This document shows positions 1 to 27,954 of a stretch of 64,000 nucleotides of DNA, in pieces. Source of the stretch: Isoetes taiwanensis. Lineage: Eukaryota; Streptophyta; Lycopodiopsida; Isoetales; Isoetaceae. The DNA lies in contig JAJEKV010000166.1 of assembly GCA_021234155.1 (NCBI GenBank), forward strand, positions 498,324 to 562,323, read 5' to 3'. Both the position numbers and the translations under genes were made by a program. The notes beneath the pieces are model-generated. The model saw only the letters and a list, made by a program, of their open reading frames with translations. It ran no database searches and was not told where the DNA came from. Each line of letters starts with the position of its first letter. Positions within the stretch are counted from its first letter, which is position 1.

Positions 1-1589
1 TGCACTTGTAAGGGCTTTGAAAAGGAGCCCCGCGCTTCAAAAAGCTGCTTAAAACTGGGCAAAGCTTTGATTTAGCAATAAAGCTAGGTAATCATTTGAT
101 AGCAGACTATCATTGCAGATTTTACAAAGGCACTATGATCCTCCATGACGTCAACTGCGGCGAGTCTTGCTGATATTAATGACTTGGACACTTACTTATT
201 TCTGTCTGTAAATATTCTAATCTTAACCCATCTTAACATGGATTCCTGAGGATGTCCTAGCATGTTTTGTATAATTGACTAATGGAATACATACCACCTG
301 TATATGTTCGATGGAATCTAAATCACTGGCAGCCTGATTTGCAATTCTGATGGAATCTAAAGCATTTGCTCATGACTGATGGAATCTAAATCACGCTCAG
401 CATGATTTGCACTTTTGAAACAATCTAAATTATTAGCATATGACTAGGATCTAAATCACGCTTAGCATGATTTGTAGTTCTAATGGAATCTAAATCACCG
501 CAGTGTGATTTGCACTTGACTAATTGCAGCAGGGGCCTGGCACTTTGTTGAAGTATGCTAACTCACTAATGGAGATGTGATGAACTCCTTGCAACATCTA
601 GCATCATAAAAACCCCTCGTTGTTTAAATCTATTTCTGAAAAACAAGATTTCCCTCGCTGGGGGAGTTAGGGTTTTGATTTGTTTGCTATGGTTTTCTTT
701 TTTTAGGATTAATCTTTTTGGGGTATTATAGAATTAAATAAATTTGAATAGCCTTATGAGTGTGCGCATTTCAGTTTATTGTGCTACAATCCTTGCTATG
801 ACATTAGGAATTTTGGAGCATGACTTCCTCCTCTATCTCATATTTTATTTTCCTTGTCACTACGTAGCATGTACTAGGTAATGTTAATTGATCTATATAT
901 AATATCATACCAATATACCAATATTAATATATGAGGTAGCATGTGCATTATATTAGCATCATTGTTAGCTATGGCATTCGATTCATATATTATGCAAACA
1001 TTTTTTATATTATTAATCTTCGTTGATATAATACAAATTTTTTGTCTTTCAGGATGATACCTCATCTTGATATGAAGCTAAGGGGCAAGCACTTCATTGA
1101 ACTAATAGTGCAACTTGTACATTGCCACTTGACTTAAAACCACATTGACATGGCTTGAATTGCATTTAAATACACATTTTGACACATTTTGAATTGCTTC
1201 TACAATCAAACTGAGGCCCTAAATCCACCATTTTGTGCTCCAAAAAGCTTTGCGACAAAGATTTCCTGGGCCAGTTTATGCCTATTATGAATAACCTGGC
1301 TATGGGGTTGACAATGAATGAAATGTCAGAATCACGTCTAGAACTAGACGGAATAATTGACAGGGAACCATACCTTGTTACTTATGTGGAAAAATATGGA
1401 TTGGTCCCTTAATGTTTTATTTGAATATAGCATTATTTTTATTGATTCATAATTTTTGGGGTTGTTCTTGCCCAAAAAACTTGTAATATGTTATCAAATT
1501 ATATATCTTTTTTGTCTCAATGTTCTAAGATTATGGTGTTATAAATTTGAACAATTTGCCCGCATAGAATAATGTTGAGCTAGACTCCA
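1..1589. other. AT-rich noncoding flank
   Basis: No credible coding frame is visible. The first 300 bases are ordinary AT-rich sequence, a degenerate tandem repeat follows (annotated separately), and the rest is AT-rich DNA with short chance frames only. The 63-codon frame near 874-1065 is low complexity and looks like a chance frame. Confidence 0.6.
300..520. repeat. Degenerate tandem repeat around 'ggaatctaaatcac'
   Basis: The phrase ggaatctaaatcac, or close variants, recurs at about 311, 352, 382, 451 and 485. Most copies are followed after a few bases by a variant of gcatgatttgcac. Spacing is irregular (roughly 35-70 bases), so this is a decayed minisatellite. It has no visible coding content. 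Confidence 0.7.
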
Positions 1590-1908
1590 ACATTTGCCTG
1601 ACATTGCCATAGCCCAACCAACTGCCTCTTGGCCTTTGCCTAGTTCTGCCACATACTGACCACCAAACCCCCTAGCCCTGCCAGACCTGACAAGCCCCTG
1701 CCATAGCCTACCTAAACCTTGCTTGGCGTGCCATACCCAAAGTCATGGCCCACGAAGCCCCCTGTCCAGGACTCATCCCCAGCGGTGAACTTCTACGGCA
1801 CCACAACACCCCACCTGCAAACCCCAAAGATAACACAGCCGACCTCCCCATAGACCGAGCCCCGGGGAAACCAAGAAGGGCCAACAAGGAAGCGGCCTGC
1901 GCACGCCA

Positions 1909-3276
1909 ATGGGCAAGGGAGAGACATCCTCCATGAAGAAGGGAGGCCCGGCCATGGCCCATTACCAGCCGCTCGGCAAACGGGTTGATGCTCAGGTCCC
2001 CCGTGGCCCCCTCCATTGGCGTAACCTTGGGCCGCCATCCAAGCTGGAGTTGAGGTTAATAGTGCGCATTGCGGCCCGAGATGGAGTCGCAACATCCCAC
2101 GTGGTTGCGGCCAGCTTGGTGATAGCAAAACAACAGACACCGAAGTTGGAGACCCAAGCACACCGGGTGGACGACAAAGATCCGCTTGGTGCACCGAGAG
2201 ACAAAGCAAGACCGGCAGTGTGCCTGGAGACATGCGGTGCTCGCGTGCGGATACCCGGGACGCCGCGAGACAGAGTGGAGGGGCAAAGGCGTAGCGAGAC
2301 ACTTTTGCAATCACGCCTCCGGATCGTGAGGTCGATGAGGCCAATGCCATGGCTTGCCAGCATGTGCCACACCAGCTTGAAGTTGAGGAGGCTACCGCCG
2401 CGAAAGGGAGGTTGCGTCGCCTTTGAAGTTAACCAAAAGACCGAGTCTTAGGAGAAGGATTTGGCACGATCGAAATGCAGGAGCTCCGGACCGCCGTTGC
2501 CAAAGAAGGCAAGGGCCTCAGGGCGGGGCGATGAACAATGGGCGATCTGCACGCCGAGATGGCAAGGGGACTCAAGCCTTGCAAGAGCCGAGCCCGACAT
2601 CAGAGACGTAGCCGCAGCAGACATGACACACCAGCATCGCAGCCCAACAACCCGCAAGACGCCAACGTGGTCACCGTCAACCCATCGCCGATACCAGCCG
2701 GCCGCGACCATCATCACGCATGCCGCCATCAGCCCCAATAGACTGGTGCCCACGAGCGCAGCTCCGCGGACAAGGCGGCGAACCACAACGGTAGTTCGGG
2801 GCTGCTTGGGAAGAACAGGAGAGAATCTCACGGAAAGATACACCTGGATCCTTGAATATATAACGTTTCTCGGTCGGGACTCATTCCAGTTACGCGGCCC
2901 ACGATGGGTCTGGGCCCGAACCCGAAGCCGTCATTGTTCTGTTTCGCCGCGATGCACAAGTTCGAGAGGCCATCTGCGGCGAGAGGCGTTACCGGGGCAT
3001 CTTTTGTATGTGAGTAGGGATCTTACTCCACGCAACGAGAGGCACGCAGCGGGGATTCACCGTGGTCAGGGGCGCCCGCCGTCGACCAAATGTTGTACCG
3101 TGACCTTCGGGACCAAATGCTACCTAGCGCCTCAGCTTGATCCATCGCAATACGCTTCCCAACTTCTTCGGTATGCTCATTTCGACCAAATTACTTGCCC
3201 CCTCACGCCTCATGCCTTGTCAGAGTCCCGCCCCATAACTTCGATTTGCTCCCATTTGGCCGGGTCCATCAAGTGA
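1909..3276 (+). pseudogene. LINE ORF1-like remnant
   Basis: Two overlapping frames (1909-2451 and 2461-3276) lie where ORF1 is expected, upstream of the endonuclease. A charged stretch with coiled-coil character runs across about 2380-2560 once the frame changes are allowed for. No zinc knuckle or RRM is recognisable. The assignment rests on position within the element and shared base composition rather than on a domain match. It is certainly nonfunctional as it stands because the frame breaks repeatedly. Confidence 0.45.
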
Positions 3277-13484: not shown

Positions 13485-16400
13485 CGTCAGTTCGATCCCT
13501 TGGCCCTACCTCCAGGAGGTTTTGGATCTGCGGACTCACCTCTGCCCCCGGGCGCCTACGGCGCGGCTTAGGAATTCATGTGTATATGTATATTTGTATG
13601 TGTTTGCCAGTTTTGTTGCACACCGGCGCGGAGATCCTCTCTTCCTAGCTGCTTGCTACTTTCCCTATGCAGAGAGTCCCTTCTACCACAGCCACCCAGA
13701 GGTGGACAGGATGGACCCGTATGTCGATCTATATGATGACATACAACAAAGACAAGCAGATGGGCGAGTCATGCTCCTTGAGACTTCAATGCGGACGGGG
13801 TGGAACGAGGCCATGCGCCCCGGACCCCTCGCGGATGACGGCTTCGTAGCTTTTGCGTCCAGAGGCGCCTTTGCACACGGCTTTTCGATGATGACCGGTC
13901 GGTCACACGCTTTGGCGGACAATTGCCCCGATGTGCGGTATCTTTGACACGCTCATATGCAATGGCCTACCACAATGGCCCTCTTCCTTCCGTACACTTG
14001 CAAAGTGGGACAATCACGACGGCGGAACTAGTGTCGTGGATTATGTCATAGTGGTCGCCACAGATGTACACCTTGTCGGCCATTTTCACGTGGCACGCGG
14101 ATAGTTCGGAATGAGGAGGCCGACCTCACCTCCCACTCTATGTGAAGCGGGCTCGCCGGCCGCTTCACGACCCCAAGAGCAGCAGCACCTTGCCGAGGCC
14201 TCGGTTTGCTTTGGATTATGAGCGCGGAGGGTTACGCCGACATGCTCACGAAGCCCTCCCGACATTCTCAAGGCCCACATCTTTGGAGCGAGAAACCCAG
14301 ACACCGGTTGAGCTCCCGGAATCAGGCGCAGTGGGTGCTTTGAGACCTCCCCATGCCGTAGATCGAGGCCGCAACCTTCCCGCTGCAATGCATGGTTTGA
14401 TGCCGAAAGTGTAAGGGAATGCAAACGACACTGGCCTCATCGCGGATCGTGACACGCTGAGCTGCGGGCCACCGCCAGCCATTACCGCCTTCCTCAAGGA
14501 ACAAAGGCAAGGTACCGCAAGGCACCAAGGAGAAATGTTCGGGCCTACTAGATGCCCACCCGAGAACTTTTTCGGCGCTGTGGTACGCCAAAGCCGCCAC
14601 GTTTTTACGGGGAAACATCACGGGCGGTGTAATGGGAGCGCATTGCAATAGCTTTATGATCCCCCGAACACGGACGGATGTGCCCCCGCGAACATGGCCC
14701 ACCGGGTGATCACGTAAGAAGATGTCGAAGAGGGTCATAGCCGGGTTAATGGGAAAGCAGCCAGACTTAGGCGGCGCCGGCAGGAGTTGCTCAAGTGGGC
14801 GTAACGTACTCATGGTGCCCGGGCCCTTCTTTCGACCGTGTTCAACAGTTTTGCGAAGAGGGTTTTCGGTCATGGACCACAAGCGGGGTTGTTCCGATCT
14901 ACAAGGCGGGGGACCCACACCGCCCGTCGACAAATTACCAAACCATCATGGTCATTTCGGTGTTTGCCAAGCCGTGGCGGGCATTCTCGAACGGCGGGTA
15001 AACGGATGGGGCAGAGGCGATGGAAGTCAAGGCACTCACCAGGCGGGGCTTCGACCCCGACATTCGACCATTGATCACATCTTCACACTCGGGGCCTCGG
15101 TCAAGGACAAGTAGGGAACCGTCGGGGAGGACATCGTTTGTTTTGTGGACTTTGCAAAAGCTTTTCGACAATGCACACCCGGGAAAAGTTGTGGGCGGAT
15201 TGCACCATCACGGGGCTCCCTATGGATTTGCGAACGCAAAGGTACGAGACATGCAAAGGCACTGCGGGCCGCATGCAACCAGGAAGAAGCGGTCATTTCG
15301 CGGCAAAGCATTGGAGTTAGGCAAGGTTGTCCTCTCTCACCCACACTCTTTGGACTTTACATTGACCGGTTGGAAGCCCGCTTGGCGGCAATGGGGGGCG
15401 GTATATAGCTCTTGCACCGAGGTCATCCGCAGTGACTCATCTATGCGGATGATGTGGACCTCTTGGCCCATACACCGAGAGGGTATGCGGGCACACCTAG
15501 ATACCCTGGACACATTACGCCAGGCGACGGACATGCATGTCAACTGGCCAAGACTAAGGTGGTCCTCATATCCTCCTCCGCCATCCAAAGCACCTCAGGC
15601 ACACTTATCGAGGCGGATGGTAGAGGTCACACTCAATAACAACGGGGGTGGAATTTCCGTCCTCAATGTATTGGGATGCATCCATTCGCCGAAAGTGACC
15701 GAGGTTGGAAGGCGTTGTATACAATGCAAAACAATAGTCACGAGGCGTAGTCAGTATGGTGGGGGCCACCGATCGCATTTGTTCCGAACGGGTGGAGCCA
15801 GTTCTTCCATATGGGGTCGAGGTGTGGGGCCCAAGATGGTGTCGTCGGCGACTTGGAACGACTTAGAGCAGTCCGAAGGCATTTTTTTGACGGGCACGGG
15901 GTCAAGCCCCGGGCCCATATCAGATCTTGTTGCGTAAGACGTGATTCATGCCCCGCAAAGATGCGGCCCTCGATAGACACATTGTTTATTTCGTAAGGTG
16001 GTAATAAAGATGGGCTTACACTTTCGGCCCCGCGACTTGGTTTACGCCGCGGGCGATGAGCCCGCAACGACTGGGGAGGCTTGTTGGAAGGACAAGAGAG
16101 CCAGTGGTACGGGCGCCACTGAACGTAGATGCACATAGGTGGGTGCACACAGGACGACGCCACCGATAGGCCGAGGGGGGTACTTGTACTCTTGTTTCTC
16201 GGGAAGCAGGGACCACCATGCTCGAACAGTAAAGATGGTACACTACAAACAAAGACATAAACCCCACCCCTGGTTCGGGCCCACAGCTCTACCCGCGTTC
16301 TCGTTGCCCATGAAGAAGCGCAGATCATCGCTACCCATTCGAATGGGGGCCCACCACCTTCGGGCTTGAGACAAGGCCTGGGTTGGAGAGCCGCCACAGA

Positions 16401-16812
16401 TGTGCTTTGTCGGTGTTCCTCCGCCGGGGTTGTTGAGGATGAAAGCTATGCCTTCCAGAGCTGTCCAACCTATAGTCAGATTCGGGCTCGCTACGCTCTC
16501 TTGGTGCTACCTCGGTTCCGCCTCAAGACGAAGCTACTCAAGACGCGGCCCGGATCCTTGGCTCCTACCTCCGTGAGGTTTTGGATCAAGCGGACTCACC
16601 TTCGCCCGAAGCGCCCACCGAGGTGCCGGGAATTCATGTGTATATGTATATTTGTATAGTCATGCCAAAGAAGGCTTGTTGTCGCGGACGCTTTTTCCCC
16701 CGGGGAGGGGGTTTAACCGGGTAGCAACGCTTGCCGCACTGTAATTTGGGTCCCATAGGCCGATTGGCCTCCGCAGACGATAAAAGAACCTTCCTTCCTT
16801 CCTTCCTTTTGT
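13485..16812 (+). mobile_element. LINE copy B, rearranged, with (CCTT)n tail
   Basis: From about 13620 this aligns with copy A from its endonuclease region onward and continues to a complete 3' end. The first 120 bases (13485-13605) instead match the element's own 3' terminal region at 16545-16655 (shared phrases include gaggttttggatc and gaattcatgtgtatatgta). A piece of 3' end is therefore joined directly upstream of a piece of the endonuclease region. The 3' untranslated part contains the phrase ggtcccataggccgattgg (16749-16767), ends in gataaaaga and then has a CCTT microsatellite tail at about 16788-16808. Confidence 0.85.
13625..16525 (+). pseudogene. LINE endonuclease-reverse transcriptase remnant (copy B)
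   Basis: The endonuclease part is heavily deleted: the GDFN region seen in copy A is broken near 13770-13795 by a lost base. RT blocks are better kept, with FVDFAKAF-like sequence near 15139-15165, GVRQGCPLSPTLFGLYIDR at about 15315-15370 and a YADD box at 15442-15453, followed by NWP-K-KVVLIS further on. The C-terminal zinc-binding segment (CRCS...VEDESYAF...C) falls at about 16400-16470. Single-base and short deletions put these blocks in different frames, so no protein can be made. Confidence 0.85.
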
Positions 16813-19375: not shown

Positions 19376-19411
19376 TATGGTTAAGGATGTCGAGTTTCAC
19401 CTGCCAGAGTA

Positions 19412-19450
19412 TTCTGGGAAAGGACTCGCGAGAGATACAAAACTGGCCAC
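19412..19450 (-). repeat. B2 repeat (element 3' end)
   Basis: It starts attctgggaaaggactcgcg and goes on agagatacaaaac. It is the terminal copy of B1 and forms the 3' boundary of the minus-strand element. The flanking sequence (ctgccagagt) is the other half of the interrupted target. Confidence 0.75.
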
Positions 19451-19779
19451 CCTAATGAGAAATGGTCGCCACCAACCTCGAATGTGTTGCCTGGAGAACA
19501 AAGGAAAAACGGACGAGAGCGAAGGCGAACATAGAGCACGACCCCAACAATGGTGAAAAATCCCCTAAAGTAACAAAGAGGAGGACGAACAGAAACGCGA
19601 CAGGTCCCCAGCAATTGGCGGAATATAAGAACCTGTAAGACCAAAGAACTCCCAAAAAAAACACCCGTAAACGATTAGAACAACAAAAGAAGCGTAGCCA
19701 TAAAAAGAAGCTGGAACAACAAAGGACCAAAGAGACGAGAAATAAAAATAGGTAGAAAAAGAACATAACAGAAAAAGAT

Positions 19780-19945
19780 AGCATCACCTATAGGGTGGAA
19801 AAAATATCACCCAGCGGGTGGAAAATCACTATATCAAAATATGCGTCACCCTCAAGGTGGAAATAAATAGCATCACCCGCAGGTGGAGAATAACACAGTA
19901 GAATGCGAAGGAAACATGGAAAAAGCCACACCCACAGATGGAGAA
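19780..19945. repeat. Row of short dyads CACC-N-GGTGG in the A2-B2 spacer
   Basis: Five short inverted motifs occur in 160 bases: cacctatagggtgg (about 19785), cacccagcgggtgg (19808), caccctcaaggtgg (19847), cacccgcaggtgg (19874) and cacccacagatgg (19928). Each can fold as a small hairpin with a 3-6-base loop. They lie between the A2 and B2 repeats of the tyrosine-recombinase element. The function is unknown; protein binding or RNA structure in the 3' region are both possible. Confidence 0.6.
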
Positions 19946-20013
19946 CACAAAAGTGCATAAATAAAAATATATATAAATGAAAAAGAAGTAGACGCCAAAG
20001 AGGGCGGGAAGGG

Positions 20014-20140
20014 GGAAGCTACGAGAACTAAGAATGCTGGCCGGTGAGAAGAAGACCGATAACCGCTTTAAAACGACAATGGTTTATATATGCTTGTCCT
20101 TTCCTTAATGGCGATCCGGATGGCTCGGATCGATGGGATT
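20014..20140 (-). repeat. A2 direct repeat (internal)
   Basis: Internal copy of A1, in the same orientation. It ends in gggatt and continues without a gap into cgggaaaggactcgcgagag, the B1 repeat. The direct B1/A2 contact is what a circular intermediate's junction would look like. Confidence 0.8.
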
Positions 20141-20180
20141 CGGGAAAGGACTCGCGAGAGACACAAAAACCGCCGACTAC
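20138..20180 (-). repeat. B1 repeat (internal)
   Basis: It starts attcgggaaaggactcgcga and goes on gagacacaaaa. The same sequence occurs at 19412-19450 with few changes. It overlaps A2 by the shared bases ATT. Confidence 0.75.
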
Positions 20181-20196
20181 CAAAGGACTTCCTCTA

Positions 20197-20400
20197 CTAT
20201 GTTTTCTCCCCACCGCTAAACCTCCAAGTGTTGAGTTGGATCGCTGGGCACATAGCAGAGTGAGAAGAAGAAGAGCGCCACCGCCGTGGAGCATGCGCCG
20301 CGATCATGTGGAACTCCGCGAAGTAAAGAAAACCGGCTCCTCCGCCGACGAAATAATGAGTACCATATTGGGATGGATTTAACTGGACAGCCGAAGACAC
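20197..20400 (-). pseudogene. Tyrosine recombinase C-terminus remnant
   Basis: The minus-strand frame reads NPSQYGTHYFVGGGAGFLYF, then HMIAAHAPRRWRSSSSHSAM. This resembles the second conserved box of tyrosine recombinases in DIRS-type elements, where a His-x-x-Arg motif (usually HSFRRGGAT) is followed by Gly-Arg-Trp and the nucleophilic Tyr. Here the Arg of HxxR is Val and the Tyr position appears as Ser or His, so catalysis would be lost. It lies at the 3' end of the element's coding region, just before B1, as expected. Recognition rests on motif pattern and position; the N-terminal box was not found. Confidence 0.5.
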
Positions 20401-21194
20401 TCCCCCACCACCCCCGAAAGTAGTTGGATAAGATAAAGGACGAAAGAAGAAGGCGAGGAACGAAAAAGAGGTCACGGAGGGAGGATCGAGGAGAGGATAA
20501 GAACCGGGTAGAAATCAAAGGTGAAGGATAGTGACAGTAAGGTGCAAACAAAGGCAAGCTGAAGCTAAAGAAATGGTATGACCCCGAGCAAGTTGGTCGC
20601 GCTTTGGAGTGATGAATAAGAACATCAACATGCAATAAGGAAAAGAAAGATCACCAATTGAGAGCAAGGGCCTCCGAGACGAAAAAAAGCGGCAAAGGAA
20701 AGCACTGATAGCCAAATGCGAGCCAAAGAGGGAAAAGAAGCGGTGGATATGGCGGAAGAACAATCGAAATTAACATGTCGAGGCAAGAGAGGAAGAAAGG
20801 GGGGGGGGGAAGCCTCAAAAAAAAGTAGACCTGATCGTCAAAGAGGGTAAAGGTAAAATGGCGGAGAGGAAGGTTGAAGATTTGATGGAAAAAGATATGG
20901 CAATGAGGGGCTAAGAAATGGAGGAAGGGGACATCCGAGGATGATGAAGCGAAGCGAAAAAAGGCCCGAACAACAAAAAGGTGAGGTCGGGAAGAGAAGG
21001 GACAAGATGGGAATGACACCAAATAACAAAATCCGGAACATCGTAAGCGAAAGGAAGAGGAGGGCTGGGAGGAAAAAAAAACTAAAAAGTAAAGTAAAAA
21101 AAAAAAAAACAAAGGGAACCTCCTGGGGGATGAGCAAGCGAGAGGCAGCTGCCATAACAACATAAAACCATGTTAACTTTATTCAAATTGACAA

Positions 21195-21685
21195 CTAAAA
21201 ACATAAAGAGCTACATGATCGACACCCCAAGCAAAAAGTTGCCGATAGATGGGGCAATAAAGCTAATGAAAATGCATCAAAAAACAGAAATTCTTTAATA
21301 AAAGATGCCCATGTCGATCCTGTCCAGAGTAAAGGCCACCAGGGTGCGGAAGGCCAATGAAGAACCACCAGTGTGATACGAGCATGACACGCGGCTGCAT
21401 GGTATAAAACGCGAGGAACTAAAGAGGGCGGAGGAAAACAAAAATTACTAAAGAGGCGCCAATCATGGGTCCCTGGGCCCACGAAAGAGCATAACCAAAA
21501 CGGATCCAAGATAACACAAGAGGGTGCGCAGAAATAGAATGCCAAAAAGGTAAAGAAGCAAAGAGACGCCCACACGCGGGCAAAGTCGCATAGTAAGAAT
21601 CAAGAGCCACCGGATCAAAGGGAAGATGGGGCAAAGCAGAGGTAAAAAGTTGGCAATCTGCAAAAAACGACTCGTCAGAAAACAA
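21195..21685 (-). pseudogene. Reverse transcriptase entry region remnant (DIRS-type)
   Basis: The minus-strand frame contains ACGRLFASLPFWHSISAHPL, then VLSWIRFGYALSW, and after a frame change VLHWPSAPWWP. In DIRS-type polyproteins a GRL...W...I...P.VL..I..GY segment precedes the RT palm, followed by a stretch ending in a conserved P..VVNPL-type motif. The palm motifs themselves (LDLR, YxDD) are not seen. Downstream sequence to 20400 is pyrimidine-rich on the coding strand and uninformative, which suggests internal deletion and decay. It is a weak but positionally consistent identification. Confidence 0.4.
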
Positions 21686-21745
21686 AATGCTTTATTAATG
21701 ATCAAAAGGAAAATACAACACGTATTTCAAAACAAAAAAGACGGC

Positions 21746-22420
21746 TCAAGAAGACCAAGGCCGAGGCAACACAGGGGGAGGAAGGGCCGAATGTTGAGGT
21801 GGCGGTGGAACGGCCATTAAAGGAGCAGGATTGAGGGGTACAACCTGAGAAAAATAAGGGGAGGAAAAAGGAGGAACAACATTATGGGAGAATTGACGAC
21901 GAAAACAATTGTCCGCAGTGTGGCGAAACCGACCGCAAAAAGTACAACGGAGGGTAGAGGAATTGGCAGAAGAAGCAGCAGAAGAAGAAAAAGAAGCTGA
22001 GGAGGGGTATGGCGAAGGTCGAGTAGAAGAGAGACGCCTCTCCTGGGCGAATTTCTTAGCTTGATGCAGGCGTTTGGACTCTTCCGAAGAGAAGGTCAAA
22101 CTAGGGGACTCGCTAAAGTGCAAAGCAACATCATAGCCATGTTGATCAGCAATAAGAACAAATTTCATCTCCTGATCCGCCAAACGCCTACCTTCCTCCA
22201 CCATCAGAAAGCACATCATCCGGAATGGCAACCCCTAACATAGCAAGACGCCCATGGATCCAGCCTGAATCGAAGTGTCCATAGCGCACGCGAAACTGTA
22301 ATAATGCCGCATGGAGTCGCTGGGCGTGCAAAGGAAGGAGTAGGGCGAGCGGCGCCCGCCTTCAATGTCTTGCCGGAGATGTCTCCAATTGAGTCTCGAA
22401 CCTAACAACCGGGCCATCAA
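21746..22420 (-). pseudogene. Gag-like protein with CCHC zinc knuckle
   Basis: Two minus-strand frames (22420-22235 and 22231-21746) read as one protein with a break near 22233. The first part contains MARLLGSRLNWRHLRQDIEG, the second VEEGRRLADQEMKFVLIADQ. A CCHC zinc knuckle, CTFCGRFRHTADNC, lies at about 21905-21946, preceded by a Ser-rich linker and followed by a Pro-rich tail. This is the usual gag layout of retroelements, in which the knuckle binds the RNA. It is the clearest coding unit of the 19.4-25.7 kb element. Confidence 0.65.
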
Positions 22421-23982
22421 GTCCTGAGGGCCCCGAGTGTAGCCCCTTTGCCGTTGAAGCTCATGAAGTAGCCGAAGTTAACTCTAAGAAACAAAGAAGA
22501 AACGGGCGGGGCGAAAAGCGAAGATGCGGCGGAAGAGAAGAGAAAAGAGGAGCCATCCGAAAGAAGAAGCAGAAAAGCAAAACCAAGCAGGAGAAGAGAA
22601 AGGAAGAAAAAGTCGAGGGGACTAAAAAGAAAAAATAGATGAGACGTAAATCGGGTTAAGCAAGGGGAGGAAAGGGAACTGTGGTCCGAAAAGATCGTGT
22701 TCCAGCGAAGGGAAGCTTCACGCTGATCGCCGAAGTACCAAAGATGGGCTGAAAGCGAAAGCCGTGGGGGAGAAAGCGACGCGTAAGAAGAGCCGTAAGC
22801 GCCATATAGACCGACGATCACCAATGACCAAAAAGAAAATCATGAGAATACAAGCACAACTTTAACGAAAAACACGCTATATGTCCCCCTAAGGAGGAAC
22901 GGAAGAAGCCCCAAAGTGGTCAACGACAAATCACCAACAAAGTGATGAAAACAAATGACGTGAAAAACACCATCACGATAACCCATAAGAAGGCACTGAA
23001 AAAATACGACGAAAAGAAGCAACGCATGGAAATGGAACAATACATAGTCATAAAGCAGACAAAAATGCAAGCGAACATAAGTTGTCAAGAACAAAGTGCA
23101 ATTGTGCATGAAACGGACAACTGGAAACATGAGATCCAAGGAACGAGCAACAAGCCAAAAACAAGAATCCCAACGATGAATAACCAAGAATATGCCAAAT
23201 AACTGCATAATAAAAGAAAGACGAACCCATACGAATGTGCAAAAAATGGATATGCATGAAAAGACGAAAAGCAACTCATCAGATAATGCCAATAAACCAT
23301 AAACCATGATAGACGTAAGAATCACAACATGATATAAACAACAAGACCAAACAAGAGGTAAAAAAATCATAGGGATGAAATGATACAACGACCCCAATAG
23401 CGCGACACCAAGTCCATGCATATAAAGCCAAACACGCAACCCCCTTATGCCAAAACCCCCAAGTTATCGAGAATCGAAAATAACGTAATACCAAATGAAG
23501 GAACCATTACAATGTGATATATACAAGGCAACAAAGTGCGCACCCAACCTTTCAAAGGGAAAAAAATAACAGGACACAAATTACCCCACCACAACTAGTA
23601 TAACACAACGCCAACCCAAATGATGCCCCACATATAACATTAAACAACCTATGGTTTATGAAGGATGCCCATATACAAAGAAACCACCGCAATCACCCAA
23701 ATGCGTAAAACAAGAACAAACAAAGCTACCCAAGGATAAGGAAGCCCACGTCAAACCTCATAAAACATCTCGTAAAAAAGCCCCGATAGGTGCACCATAC
23801 CCGGAAAACAATAAGTAAGAACCTTAAATAAAGTACATATGAAACCGTAAACCCACACATCGAACATATAACATAAAAAAGAAAAACATTTATCTTATTC
23901 CATTTTATTCAAAGATGGCATTAACACCCTTACAATGCCCAAACACCAAACACAAAACACATGTCCCAGAGATCAGGGATAA

Positions 23983-24300
23983 TCAGGCAAGGAGGCCCAA
24001 CGAAATTGCCGGATAAGTCGGGAGGAATTGAGGAGGATACTCAGTCAAAATGAGCAAAAACTCGCGCAGCTGGATGGGACGTAAAGATGAAAAGCCCCAT
24101 AGCAAAATAATGTCTCCCAGGAAACGAGCCCGAGCTGGATCCACAAATCCATAATGAAGCGGAACACCCTTAACAGCAGGAGAGAAAAGCAAAGATAAAG
24201 GCGCAATGCCCGGAAGAATTCTTCGGGCCAGTCGATGTCTGCATGTGCAAGCCGCAAAGCATTCCCGAAAGCGTAAGGGTGCAAGGCCTCCAAATGTGAC
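23983..24300 (-). pseudogene. Upstream ORF remnant of the tyrosine-recombinase element
   Basis: Joining two overlapping minus-strand frames across one frame break gives a protein-like stretch containing HPYAFGNALRLAHADIDWPE and later LHYGFVDPARARFLGDIILL. It ends at a stop near 23983. It has normal amino acid variety, unlike the surrounding pyrimidine-rich frames, so it is probably an element-coded region 5' of gag. I do not recognise it. Confidence 0.35.
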
Positions 24301-25555
24301 GATAAAGATGGTGCGTGGTCATCTAATCTCCTCGGTGGTGAAAAGGCGGAAAAAGCCCAGAGGGAAAATCTTGGCAGAGCACAAAGGACAAGGGAACGGT
24401 GATCGGACCCGAGAACGAACAAAAGGTAATCGGCAAAGAACCCAGATGCCCAAAGCCCACCGGGAAAAAGGGGAGCCATGACGTAAATATAAAGATCAAG
24501 AAGCCCCGTGGGAAGGAATGAATTTACAACTGCGAAGCCGAAAGTGAATGGAGGCCAAGCACGGCCGGAAAAGCATGCAAAAACCAGTGGCAGCCAAAAT
24601 CCAGCAAAAATAGCGAGCCTAAAAGAAGCAGTCGAAAATACAACAGAAAGCTTGATGGCAAATAAGCGAAAACATACCAGATAAGAGTCAGGATGAACAG
24701 ATTTGGCCAGCATAACACTAAAAGGAAGCAAACTCGACCGAAAAACTTGAAGCCACGGCTTAAAAATCCGCAGACAGCGCCCATGCAAAGAAAGAGAGGA
24801 TCCAGGGAACAGAGGCGGGAAACCAAATCACAGAGGGCAAATACAGTAAGGACAAAAAAAAAGGGTAGAAGGAACAAATGTAGCCCAAGTTGCGGCCATG
24901 CAAGAGAGGCTAAGAACAGAGACACCAGCGCAGATAACACAAGGGAAACGAATCTTCCATGCCGCCAGCATCATGCAGGGTAAGAGGCAGAACCAGAAGG
25001 GGAATGACAGAACAAAAAATGAAGTGAGCATAAAATGAACTGAGAGCACAGATAAGCCCGAGCCGGAAAGGACTAAAGAGATGATAAAACCGTAACCAAA
25101 AAACAAGAGCAGGCCCGAAAACCGAGAAGAAGCTCGAAGCAATCAAGGGATAGATCAGATAAAACAAGGAATAGAAAGAAGCATGCGCCCCAATGCCCAG
25201 TTCATGCAACCCGAAAATCATCCCCCACAAACCCAGAACATCCACAGTACATGAACAAGCCATTCAACAGAACGGACCAAGAGCCCAAACACAAACCCAT
25301 CACACCCGAACATCCCAAAAAACAATAGAAATACAGAGCCATGCATAACGAAGACGATGACAAAACAAATGGGTAGAAGCATACCGAGTATGGAAGAAGG
25401 ACAAATTCGTAGAATCATGCTAAGCATGGAAGAGAAGGGAGCGTACCGTCCAAAGAATGATGAAGAAAGTCGCCAGGCAGGTGCAAGCGGCGAGAAGGTG
25501 AAGCACGAGACGGGTGGAGAAGCTGGGGAAGAAATCCATCGAATGAAGAGCCATC

Positions 25556-25682
25556 GAAGCTACGAGAACGAAGAATGCTGCTGTGAGAAGACGCCGATAA
25601 CCAAGCGGAAAACGACAATGGCCTAATATAGGCGCTCGTCCTTTCCCAGAATGGCGATCCGATGGCTCGGATCGATGGGATT
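25556..25682 (-). repeat. A1 direct repeat (element 5' end)
   Basis: This 127-base segment matches 20014-20140 from gaagctacgagaac through cgatggctcggatcgatggg-type sequence to the terminal gggatt, with scattered differences. It marks the 5' end of the minus-strand element; outside it begins atctataagc, the interrupted target sequence. Confidence 0.8.
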
Positions 25683-26157: not shown

Positions 26158-26194
26158 TTTATGCAATGGTGTTTTCATTTTGATTCATTTGTAG

Positions 26195-27954
26195 GTTCTT
26201 GCTCTTGAGCATTCTTTTGGCGTTATTCATCGAGATTTGAAGCCTGACAATCTCTTAATTGCTCATGATGGGCATATCAAGGTAAATTTTTAGCTTTTGT
26301 GAAGTCCATTCAAAAGGATTGCTTTGTAACTTTTATGAAAAGCAAACGACCACAGCCACAGGCCATTTGTCAGGAAAGAAACTTTTGGTTAGCATGCCAA
26401 GATTACAAGTTGCGACTAGCCTAAGACTTAGATGTGGGGCATATTATAGATGTGATCACGAATGTTGAGACCTTTAGGTGCTTTGCATAATATATGTATG
26501 CTTTTACACAATGTTCTATAGTTATGCATCTTTTGCTTTATCTCTTATAATTTAGCTTTATGGTGTTTCAGCTCACAGATTTTGGTGTATCAAGATTTGG
26601 CCTTATCAATAGGATAGATGATTTGTCAGGCCCTACTGCCTGTGAAAATGTACTGTTTGATGACATTGAAAGCAATAAGGCTCCAGATTACAACAATAAG
26701 ATGGAACATCGGCAACAACAATGTGCAATTGGCACTCCAGATTATTTGGCACCGAAAATTCTTTTGGCAACTGTTCACGGTGACCCTATAGTATGGTTAT
26801 CTTACTCATATGACCTATTCGTTAACCATGTCTATTTCACTGTATATAGGTTCCACCGCTGATTGGTGGTCATTTGGGGTCATTCTTTTTGAGCTATTGA
26901 CTGGTGTTCCACCTTTCAATGCAGCAAATACTTTTTTTTTTCTGGAGGTATTATTCTTCAGGGGATAGTGTATAGCTGATCTCTTCATGTTTAAGAGCCT
27001 CAGTTAATACGCTATTTATAATATTCTTTTTGAATGAAGCGGATAATTTATAATATTCTGTTTGAATGACGCAAATAATTTTTAATAGCATTCTCAATAG
27101 AAACATTCCTTGGCCCGATGTCCCTGATGATATGTCTTTTGAGGCCCGGGATCTTATTGATAAGTATGGAAGTGCAATATTTTGTTTCTTTTAGAAATTA
27201 ATGTCACTCTTCTTGGTTAATTATAGAAACGCAATTGGATCACTTTAAGAACTGTTGCTATAATCTCACCTTTCAGGTTACTCCTGGAGGATCCAGATCA
27301 ATGGCTTGGAACACATGGTGCATCTGAGGTACAGGCCCATGAATAGTCCTTTTGGCTTTTATATAAAGGGTGCAATGTGGCTAATTATAGTTTTGCTTTT
27401 ACAGGTCAAAGTACATCCCTTTTTCAAGGATATTAAATGGGACATTCTGGCAAGGCAAAAGGTGGAGATTGCTAGGCATCTTATGTTTTTGCACAAAATA
27501 TAAGTAGATTCTAAAGTATAACTAATCTTTTACAGGCAGCGTTCATTCTAGCCTAGAGGCCATTGATGGCACAAGTTATTTCACCTCACGGCATCCATTG
27601 GCGTCTCTAGATGGCCGTGTTTATGCAGAACATGAATTTGCAGACTATAGTGACTATGCAAACAGTAGTGGCGGAAGCAGTAAGTTCAACTAGTATATTT
27701 TCCTTTTGAATTTAAGGTGAGGCCTTGTGAACATGGAAGTTTTTTAGATGAATGCAGAGATCTCGCTGAGCTTGAAAGCACACCATCTGTCAAATATTCT
27801 TTCACTAACATTTCTTTCAAGGTAATATTAGCGCTTGAAATAACCTGGTGCCATCAAGTTGTTGATTTATTCTACATGTGTGTAGAACTTATCTCAATTG
27901 GCATCAATAAATTATGATCTATTGCCAAAGGATACTTCCAAAGGGAGTCAATAG
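26195..27954 (+). pseudogene. IRE-type AGC protein kinase, 5'-truncated and frameshifted
   Basis: Exons match the C-terminal half of the INCOMPLETE ROOT HAIR ELONGATION-type kinases (MAST-like AGC kinases): 26195-26281 ([11 protein letters not shown]), 26572-26779 (LTDFGVSRFG, then GTPDYLAPK), 26850-about 26935 ([18 protein letters not shown]), about 27072-27162 ([12 protein letters not shown]), 27277-27328 (LLLEDPDQWLGTHGASE), 27405-27461 (VKVHPFFKDIKWDILARQK), 27536-27679, 27717-27821 and 27886-27954 (NLSQLASINYDLLPK, then stop). The ATP-binding lobe and long N-terminus are absent. Damage: the APE motif is APK; two residues are missing before HRD; RLG is WLG; a lost base in exon 7 shifts the frame (SLEAIDGTSYFTSRHPLASL reads in another frame); exon 3 runs into poly(T). 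The C-terminal tail is otherwise well kept, so the loss is fairly recent. Confidence 0.85.

Follow-up and report, generated by a model that had tools for sequence, protein, structure and literature searches.

A degenerate retroelement lies on the minus strand of a 64,000-nucleotide stretch of the Isoetes taiwanensis genome (contig JAJEKV010000166.1, positions 498,324 to 562,323), referred to here as the window. Its direct repeats are split in the order A1...B1A2...B2. We interpret it, with a probability of about 0.94, as a decayed tyrosine-recombinase (YR) retrotransposon of the DIRS order and as one of many in this genome. Its ends were set by comparison with relatives in the same assembly (numbered L001 onward), and its parts, in window coordinates, are as follows.

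19411..25682, minus strand: whole element, degenerate, 6272 bp with both core triplets included
25556..25682, minus strand: A1, 5' terminal copy of repeat A (flank ...GAT-AAT followed by CCCATCG)
21752..22666, minus strand: gag remnant with a CX2CX4HX4C motif (CTFCGRFRHTADNC); tblastn with the L010 gag frame, E 6e-72, 54% identity
21467..21816, minus strand: 5' part of pol (reverse transcriptase [RT]-entry stub), ending short of the RT core; tblastn
21466..21471, minus strand: deletion point, where L004 4668-6147 (RT core and RNase H) is absent
21204..21470, minus strand: pol C-terminal remnant, the methyltransferase-position segment; L004 pol residues 610-697 at 89% (tblastn)
20213..21182, minus strand: YR pseudogene, frame-shifted; tblastn with the L004 YR
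20138..20168, minus strand: B1, internal copy of repeat B, from repeat alignment
20014..20140, minus strand: A2, internal copy of repeat A, which has the core triplet in common with B1
20096..20151, minus strand: nested palindrome of B1A2, decayed in this copy and regular in relatives
19449..20013, minus strand: A2-B2 spacer with short GCATCACCC..GGGTGGA repeats; about 180 nucleotides (nt) present in L004 are missing at its B2 side, near 19449
19411..19442, minus strand: B2, 3' terminal copy of repeat B, ending ...CCCAG-AAT
19411..19430, no strand: end arm of the terminal inverted pair, 90% complementary to 25633-25652
25633..25652, no strand: subterminal arm of that pair, inside A1, partner of 19411-19430

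On the minus strand the order is thus A1 (25682-25556), gag remnant, pol stub, pol C-terminal remnant, YR remnant, B1, A2, spacer and B2. An initial annotation had proposed a gag with a CCHC motif, an RT entry and a YR-like end in this order, and remnants of all three were recovered at about 22666-21752, 21816-21467 and 21182-20213. The repeats it had paired also aligned, the A copies (20014/20015-20140 and 25556-25682) at 83% over 132 columns and the B copies (19416-19442 and 20142-20168) at 96% identity over 27 nt. Its statement that B1 abuts A2 was borne out in a more exact form: in relatives the two overlap by the triplet AAT, and the window junction is one base shorter. Across long aligned blocks the window copy is 82-84% identical to L004. 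Residues 49-117 of L004 pol matched 21673-21467 at 94%, and residues 1-89 matched 21816-21559 at 54% in another frame (tblastn). At the deletion, element blocks 4934/4935 adjoin where L004 has 4667/6148, and pol residues 118-609 are gone. The YR pseudogene matched residues 1-21 and 50-285 of the L004 YR (E 8e-34) and residues 96-326 in another frame (E 4e-7). Since the coding strand is pyrimidine-rich, long open reading frames (ORFs) between A1 and gag were not read as genes; the two that were scanned (24045-24827 and 22840-23463, minus strand) had no Pfam match.

Identity as a DIRS-order element is settled by relatives in the same genome, because these, L004 among them, share the layout and carry RT-RNase H and YR frames. 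Read in coding orientation, L004 and L005 have every part of the plan (A1, pol, YR, B1A2, B2). In L004, a single 704-amino-acid (aa) frame contains RVT_1, and a 329-aa YR frame starts at the end of pol and stops just before B1A2; L005 has both matches, with pol split across two frames. The Pfam profile RVT_1 matched at E 1.8e-15 in L004 and 6.8e-15 in L005. Phage_integrase (PF00589) matched at 6.4e-9 and 6.2e-9, respectively, and was over the cut-off in L004, L005 and L009. RVT_3 was over the cut-off in an L009 segment (1.3e-4) and below it in L004 (0.0094). The YR motif consists of R, HxxR and Y, and these residues were unchanged in six of six sequences. In L004, L005, L006, L009 and L010 the RT frame adjoins or overlaps the YR frame, with YR on the same strand as RT in the relatives, and the gag motif CX2CX4HX4C was present in the window copy, L004, L005, L009 and L010. 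L008, L009 and L011 are built on the plan of L004 and L005, with ends that differ in sequence (A of 163-172 nt, B of about 39 nt), and their YRs are 48-50% identical to that of L004. Profile searches found RT, RNase H and YR in relatives arranged A1-gag-RT-YR-B1A2-B2, in agreement with the split-direct-repeat YR retroelement initially proposed.

The YR frames also bear a record of selection. Pairs within a family had ratios of nonsynonymous to synonymous substitution (dN/dS) of 0.10 to 0.23; for L009 or L008 against L011 the ratio was 0.11 to 0.12 at a dS of 1.7 to 1.9. Across the two main families synonymous sites were near or at saturation, and dN/dS was 0.27 to 0.31 where computable. These values indicate that the YR frames are genes formerly under selection. 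The A1 and A2 copies, a guide to age, were 100% identical in L004 (124 nt) and L005 (121 nt), 97-99% in L002, L008, L009, L010 and L011, 94% in L001, 88% in L003 and 83% in the window, whose copy looks old.

Within the DIRS order, the placement turns on a methyltransferase. In the scheme of PMC4157794, as far as that account goes, split direct repeats with a methyltransferase denote PAT, and split direct repeats without one denote Ngaro or Viper. A segment of about 130 residues following RNase H, in the methyltransferase position, is 64-66% identical between families. It had no Pfam match, and its only PHROG match was a weak one to phrog_111 (E 0.17 and 3.6), the T1-type Dam family, which T1 Dam itself matches at 4e-86. 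Comparison of the segment with T1 Dam relatives by hhalign gave a probability of 0.75% over 24 columns only, against 0.23% and 0.06% for unrelated controls, and the aligned columns fell in the same region as the PHROG match. A genome search with PF05869 reached a best E of 0.45, below the cut-off. PDB searches gave nothing meaningful for the profile of this segment and no match for the L004 YR. We lean toward a PAT-like element. A Ngaro-like element, with split direct repeats, B1A2 downstream of YR and no methyltransferase, is the alternative to be taken most seriously, although we consider it the less likely of the two: the position of B1A2 is that described for Ngaro in the relevant part of PMC4157794, and no methyltransferase was significantly matched, but the conserved segment past RNase H and its sole PHROG match to a Dam family speak the other way.

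The PAT-like elements (PAT of Panagrellus, SpPat1, Toc3) share A1-B1A2-B2 and an RT placed before a forward YR, as characterized in PMC4157794, and the gag of Pat1 has a zinc knuckle to which the CX2CX4HX4C motif may correspond; the element described here differs in its vascular-plant host, in a B of only about 36-43 nt, in a methyltransferase that is not demonstrated and, perhaps, in a nested palindrome at the junction. Ngaro of zebrafish, Xenopus and fungi likewise has split direct repeats and B1A2 downstream of YR, whereas a methyltransferase-position segment may be present here. One Xenopus Ngaro, by the description in PMC9210276, has an A of 236 bp, a B of 152 bp and an SGNH ORF. The initial annotation had likened the layout to PAT, kangaroo and Ngaro; the split direct repeats agree, but the Kangaroo type does not. 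Kangaroo of Volvox shares split direct repeats and a green-lineage host, but its YR is inverted and its repeats lie between methyltransferase and YR (PMC4157794, in its outline of the type), while here YR is forward and precedes B1A2, and the Kangaroo plan was rejected. SymbioDIRS-Dnmt3 of a dinoflagellate, compared by description and not by sequence, has the order A-coding region-B-A-B and a separate YR ORF (PMC5890265, in its element description) but carries a cytosine methyltransferase and has another host. DIRS1-like elements resemble the present one in RT-RNase H-YR, in inverted terminal arms and in insertion without target duplication. Their plan was rejected as well, since the main repeats here are direct, the inverted pair spans only 15-20 nt, and no long inverted terminal repeats or internal complementary region were seen. 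ALOG-type DIRS1 retroposons, as presented in PMC3537659, are also DIRS-order YR retroelements, but a Pfam scan of the YR proteins of L004, L005 and L009 detected no ALOG domain (PF04852). The genome has seven ALOG matches, two of them nearly full, all apart from the 58 YR matches listed in the genome search described below, and this type was set aside. Together with 49 AUX_IAA matches, the ALOG matches fit a land plant.

The length of the A2-B2 spacer had been called unusual and a possible mark of a distinct lineage. Computed with A = 127 nt and B = 39 nt throughout, it is about 561 nt in the window and about 547-750 nt in seven relatives. The spacer is therefore ordinary for these families, and because spacers overlap among relatives, its length is not supported as a lineage marker.

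Relatives carrying both repeats, whose existence the initial annotation had left to a genome search, are numerous. The search covered 1658258908 bases in 1110 contigs. For repeat A, 40 of 385 candidates were scored and all 40 matched, two of them inside the window. A 20-nt B word with at most 2 mismatches occurred at 1156 places in the 1.66-Gb genome, compared with 3 for the reversed pattern. Fused B1A2 patterns of two families matched 1368 (at most 3 mismatches) and 764 places, with 0 and 0 for the reversed controls; these are counts of junctions, not of whole elements. With Phage_integrase, at least 58 YR matches were obtained (148 of 246 candidates scored), several of which adjoin the B word. 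Forty-four of the 58, chosen by the analyst, were read; in the 14 others, as in L012, the match is confined to about profile positions 86-168. A recognizable B1A2 junction was present in 37 of the 44. The exceptions are L006 and L054 (B1 without A2), L012 (another YR class), L015, L017 and L044 (no junction found), and L022, which has the inner palindrome only and was not counted. Of 20 loci for which about 1.6 kb was retrieved, 16 have B1 and B2 as a repeat 711-1023 nt apart; in L018 and L032, both among the 16, the B repeat stops short of the B2 core triplet. Contamination is unlikely, because the copies read end to end (L001 to L005, L008 to L011) sit in contigs of 9.8-27.9 Mb.

Three of these copies, L001 to L003, matched the YR tail alone and had no pol or gag match (tblastn). 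We take them to be non-autonomous relatives. Such copies retain a YR tail, B1A2, spacer, B2 and a far-end A1 and no more, and they are probably mobilized in trans; the window copy has additionally lost its RT core and RNase H by deletion. Where autonomous copies carry genes, L001 to L003 also hold duplicated blocks. Short-unit repeat tracts with copies 8 nt apart occur in L001 (2427-2663 and 3700-4156), L003 (2589-2771 and 3804-4026) and, similarly, L002.

The B1A2 junction proved to be a nested palindrome, which the initial annotation had not predicted. In family 1, the B end GTCCTTTCCCAGAAT pairs with ATTCTGGGAAAGGAC inside A, around an inner pair of 8 bp; the outer arms of family 2 are its own, and its inner pair spans 13 bp. 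As a single strand, B1A2 is predicted to form one hairpin with an outer arm of 15 bp, an unpaired internal loop and an inner arm of 8 or 13 bp. The crossover triplet lies beside the internal loop: in family 1 the outer arm ends with it, and in family 2 it sits one base in from the end of that arm. The dinucleotide that follows AAT, which in family 1 falls inside the loop, varies, with at least eight versions among the exact matches listed. Within a single 10-kb stretch, L007 holds differing family-1 junction types (201-264 and 7918), and the first of these is altered at several paired positions of the outer arms.

Pairing was evaluated in two alignments. The first took in 15 of the 18 distinct junctions: indels led to the removal of L003 and L049, and L016 was omitted for being the same as L010 inside the structure. 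The window, L001 and L047 junctions, which also carry indels, were never part of it. In these 15 junctions, 96.5% of cells pair, a percentage raised by leaving out the rows with indels. Five pairs change on both sides, compared with a shuffled mean of 2.4 (4 of 500 shuffles reach five), and covariation was 0.160, a score that none of 500 shuffles attains (0.106 in shuffles), compared with 0.014-0.082 for slid pairings. Because the junction rows are related, the shuffles overstate this support. Two results go against the signal: further pair types numbered 12, no more than in shuffles (12.3), and the five both-side changes are confined to the outer arm, with none in the inner. The second alignment, of family 2, had 8 distinct rows of 12 (L009, L022, L027, L043, L048, L053 and L054 were not entered) and was weak by itself, with one both-side change (matched by 382 of 500 shuffles) and a covariation of 0.041 against 0.020 (6 of 500 shuffles), exceeded by a +3 slide (0.062). 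Four single junctions folded as DNA gave z scores of -5.6 to -10.3.

The B1A2 hairpin resembles integron attC sites, which are folded recombination sites, and the substrate of the recombinase may thus be a single cDNA strand in folded form. We give little credence to the proposal that B1A2 is an attC-like folded site, or, alternatively, that an element with split direct and short inverted repeats is a surviving PAT/DIRS1 intermediate, a form described as not observed in the pertinent passage of PMC4157794. The plainer reading is that the palindrome arms are duplex binding sites for the recombinase.

Integration was analyzed by joining the flanks of five insertions (window, L004, L005, L009 and L002) at a single triplet and searching for empty sites. 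These were obtained for four of the five, with matches across the joint of 93-100%. For L005, L009 and L004, a single AAT stands in the target of the empty site, and each end of the filled site carries an AAT. For L002, the empty site reads TAT; the filled site retains TAT at its 5' end and carries the element's AAT at its 3' end. Thus, a 3-nt core is exchanged, the 5' triplet coming from the target and the 3' triplet from the element, with no further duplication or loss, unlike the insertions of DDE-integrase elements. The empty site of L002 and the L002 copy share a contig, where they lie about 6-8 kb apart and the sequence is locally repeated. Host flanks of L002 (2-225 and 8689-8913) are repeated at 91-93%, 8687-8688 nt apart; the element measures 7909 nt. 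Target triplets at 25 distinct A1 flanks were AAT (17), TAT (6), TTT (1) and GTT (1); from 20 fetched stretches, three A2 junctions and two repeated flanks were left out of this count. An AG preceded the target triplet in 5 of the 9 flanks read first, yet the count for all 25 was no more than 6, and so no preference is claimed.

These observations suggest a route of transposition. The internal B1A2 block is a copy of the joined element ends and, following the published DIRS model, most likely serves as the template for restoring the termini and closing a circular DNA. The agreement of B1A2 with the joined ends is the one feature that points to such a circle, whose junction is expected to read ...CCCAGAATCCCATCG... 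The recombinase would exchange this junction (...CCCAG-AAT-CCC...) with a genomic (A/T)AT, so that the target triplet stays at the 5' end and the element's AAT arrives at the 3' end without further duplication or loss; the products of this exchange are seen in the genome, and the enzyme and the circle are inferred.

The same data bear on more distant explanations. A gypsy or copia long terminal repeat (LTR) retrotransposon with LTRs rearranged to resemble split repeats is very improbable. The L009 RT-RNase H had as its best PDB matches the RT/RNase H chain 4ol8 (E 2e-10) and Ty3 Gag-Pol 7q5b (E 2e-9), and DIRS and Ty3 RTs are related, as stated in PMC3266345; yet 37 of the 44 YR loci read have this B1A2 junction in common, YR lies beside RT, and the empty sites contain a single triplet. 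Pfam matched no integrase in the frames scanned, a subset of all frames. LTR elements make a target duplication of 4-6 bp. With a YR present, and with no plain LTRs, integrase or duplication past the core triplet seen, an LTR element was rejected. High copy number and the short inverted similarity between A and B would suit pieces of unrelated satellites or tandem arrays, but A and B recur together at fixed positions, in a fixed order and with similar spacing in independent insertions, and their boundaries are clean against empty sites, which makes this origin scarcely credible. A Crypton-type DNA transposon, a YR without RT that neighbors an RT by chance, has the other YR class in its favor (L012 and the 14 listed matches of its short type) but is also scarcely credible, because RT and YR frames adjoin or overlap in L004, L005, L006, L009 and L010, and in all of these but L006, in whose stretch no A copy turned up, A1 is situated upstream of both frames. 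In L012 itself (G000:C1041:9436500-9446400), a 411-aa YR frame (1467-2699, minus strand) matches PF00589 at E 6e-8 over the C-terminal half of the profile only, with 1.3-kb direct repeats (95%) nearby; this class looks Crypton-like.

Several points weigh against the identification of the window copy and its relatives as DIRS-order elements. The window copy itself has no RT core, and its insertion yielded no empty site among the 40 of 324 candidates scored. No copy read has been shown with all three frames open at full length, because the L004 gag is interrupted by stops, pol is split in L005 and L010, and the L009 gag frame is shorter than that of L010. The gag knuckle falls below the Pfam cut-off (zf-CCHC_5 at E 0.14), and the methyltransferase domain, the PAT-like mark, had no significant match in any profile search. 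The DIRS placement draws on layout and domains. The element is known from genomic sequence, and circle, RNA and transposition lie outside what was observed.

Elsewhere in the window, a frame next to the element (26180-26860, plus strand) reads like protein-kinase exons, including DFG words; its 103-aa kinase-like frame had no Pfam match at E 0.01. Long open frames of 207-311 aa occupy both strands at 14322-16445.

The published record on DIRS elements in plants is uneven. A review (PMC9033089) gives DIRS as found so far only in green algae, and PMC6338049 states in its treatment of methylase-encoding transposons that they are absent from land plants such as tracheophytes. The survey in PMC3266345 counts plants, in the portion concerned, among the well-studied groups in which DIRS1-like elements are undescribed and places PAT-like families in Chlamydomonas and Volvox; PMC4157794 cites this survey for Dirs1-like elements in Viridiplantae. 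For the fern Ceratopteris, 361 DIRS-annotated elements (45 kb) are tabulated in PMC6890710, with no description in the portion seen, and PMC11630846 names DIRS in a general way among the plant classes. DIRS appears nowhere in the main text of the Isoetes sinensis paper (PMC10541799), and the repeat account of the I. taiwanensis genome paper (PMC8566536) names LTR elements, not DIRS. Titles and abstract openings in the openly licensed literature, as distinct from supplements and Repbase, named no characterized land-plant DIRS element. An ALOG-type DIRS1 group has been proposed as the source of the plant ALOG regulators, with no complete streptophyte element known in that account (PMC3537659).

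A DIRS-order population in a lycophyte, with recent-looking copies, contradicts a restriction to green algae, and the retention, loss or regain of DIRS elements in streptophytes becomes testable. The reported absence of methylase transposons from land plants would also fall if the methyltransferase-position segment, which is unproven, is real. The population bears as well on the proposed DIRS origin of the ALOG regulators, although the YRs here show no ALOG domain. Finally, the empty sites provide a nucleotide-level view of how a split-repeat element integrates.

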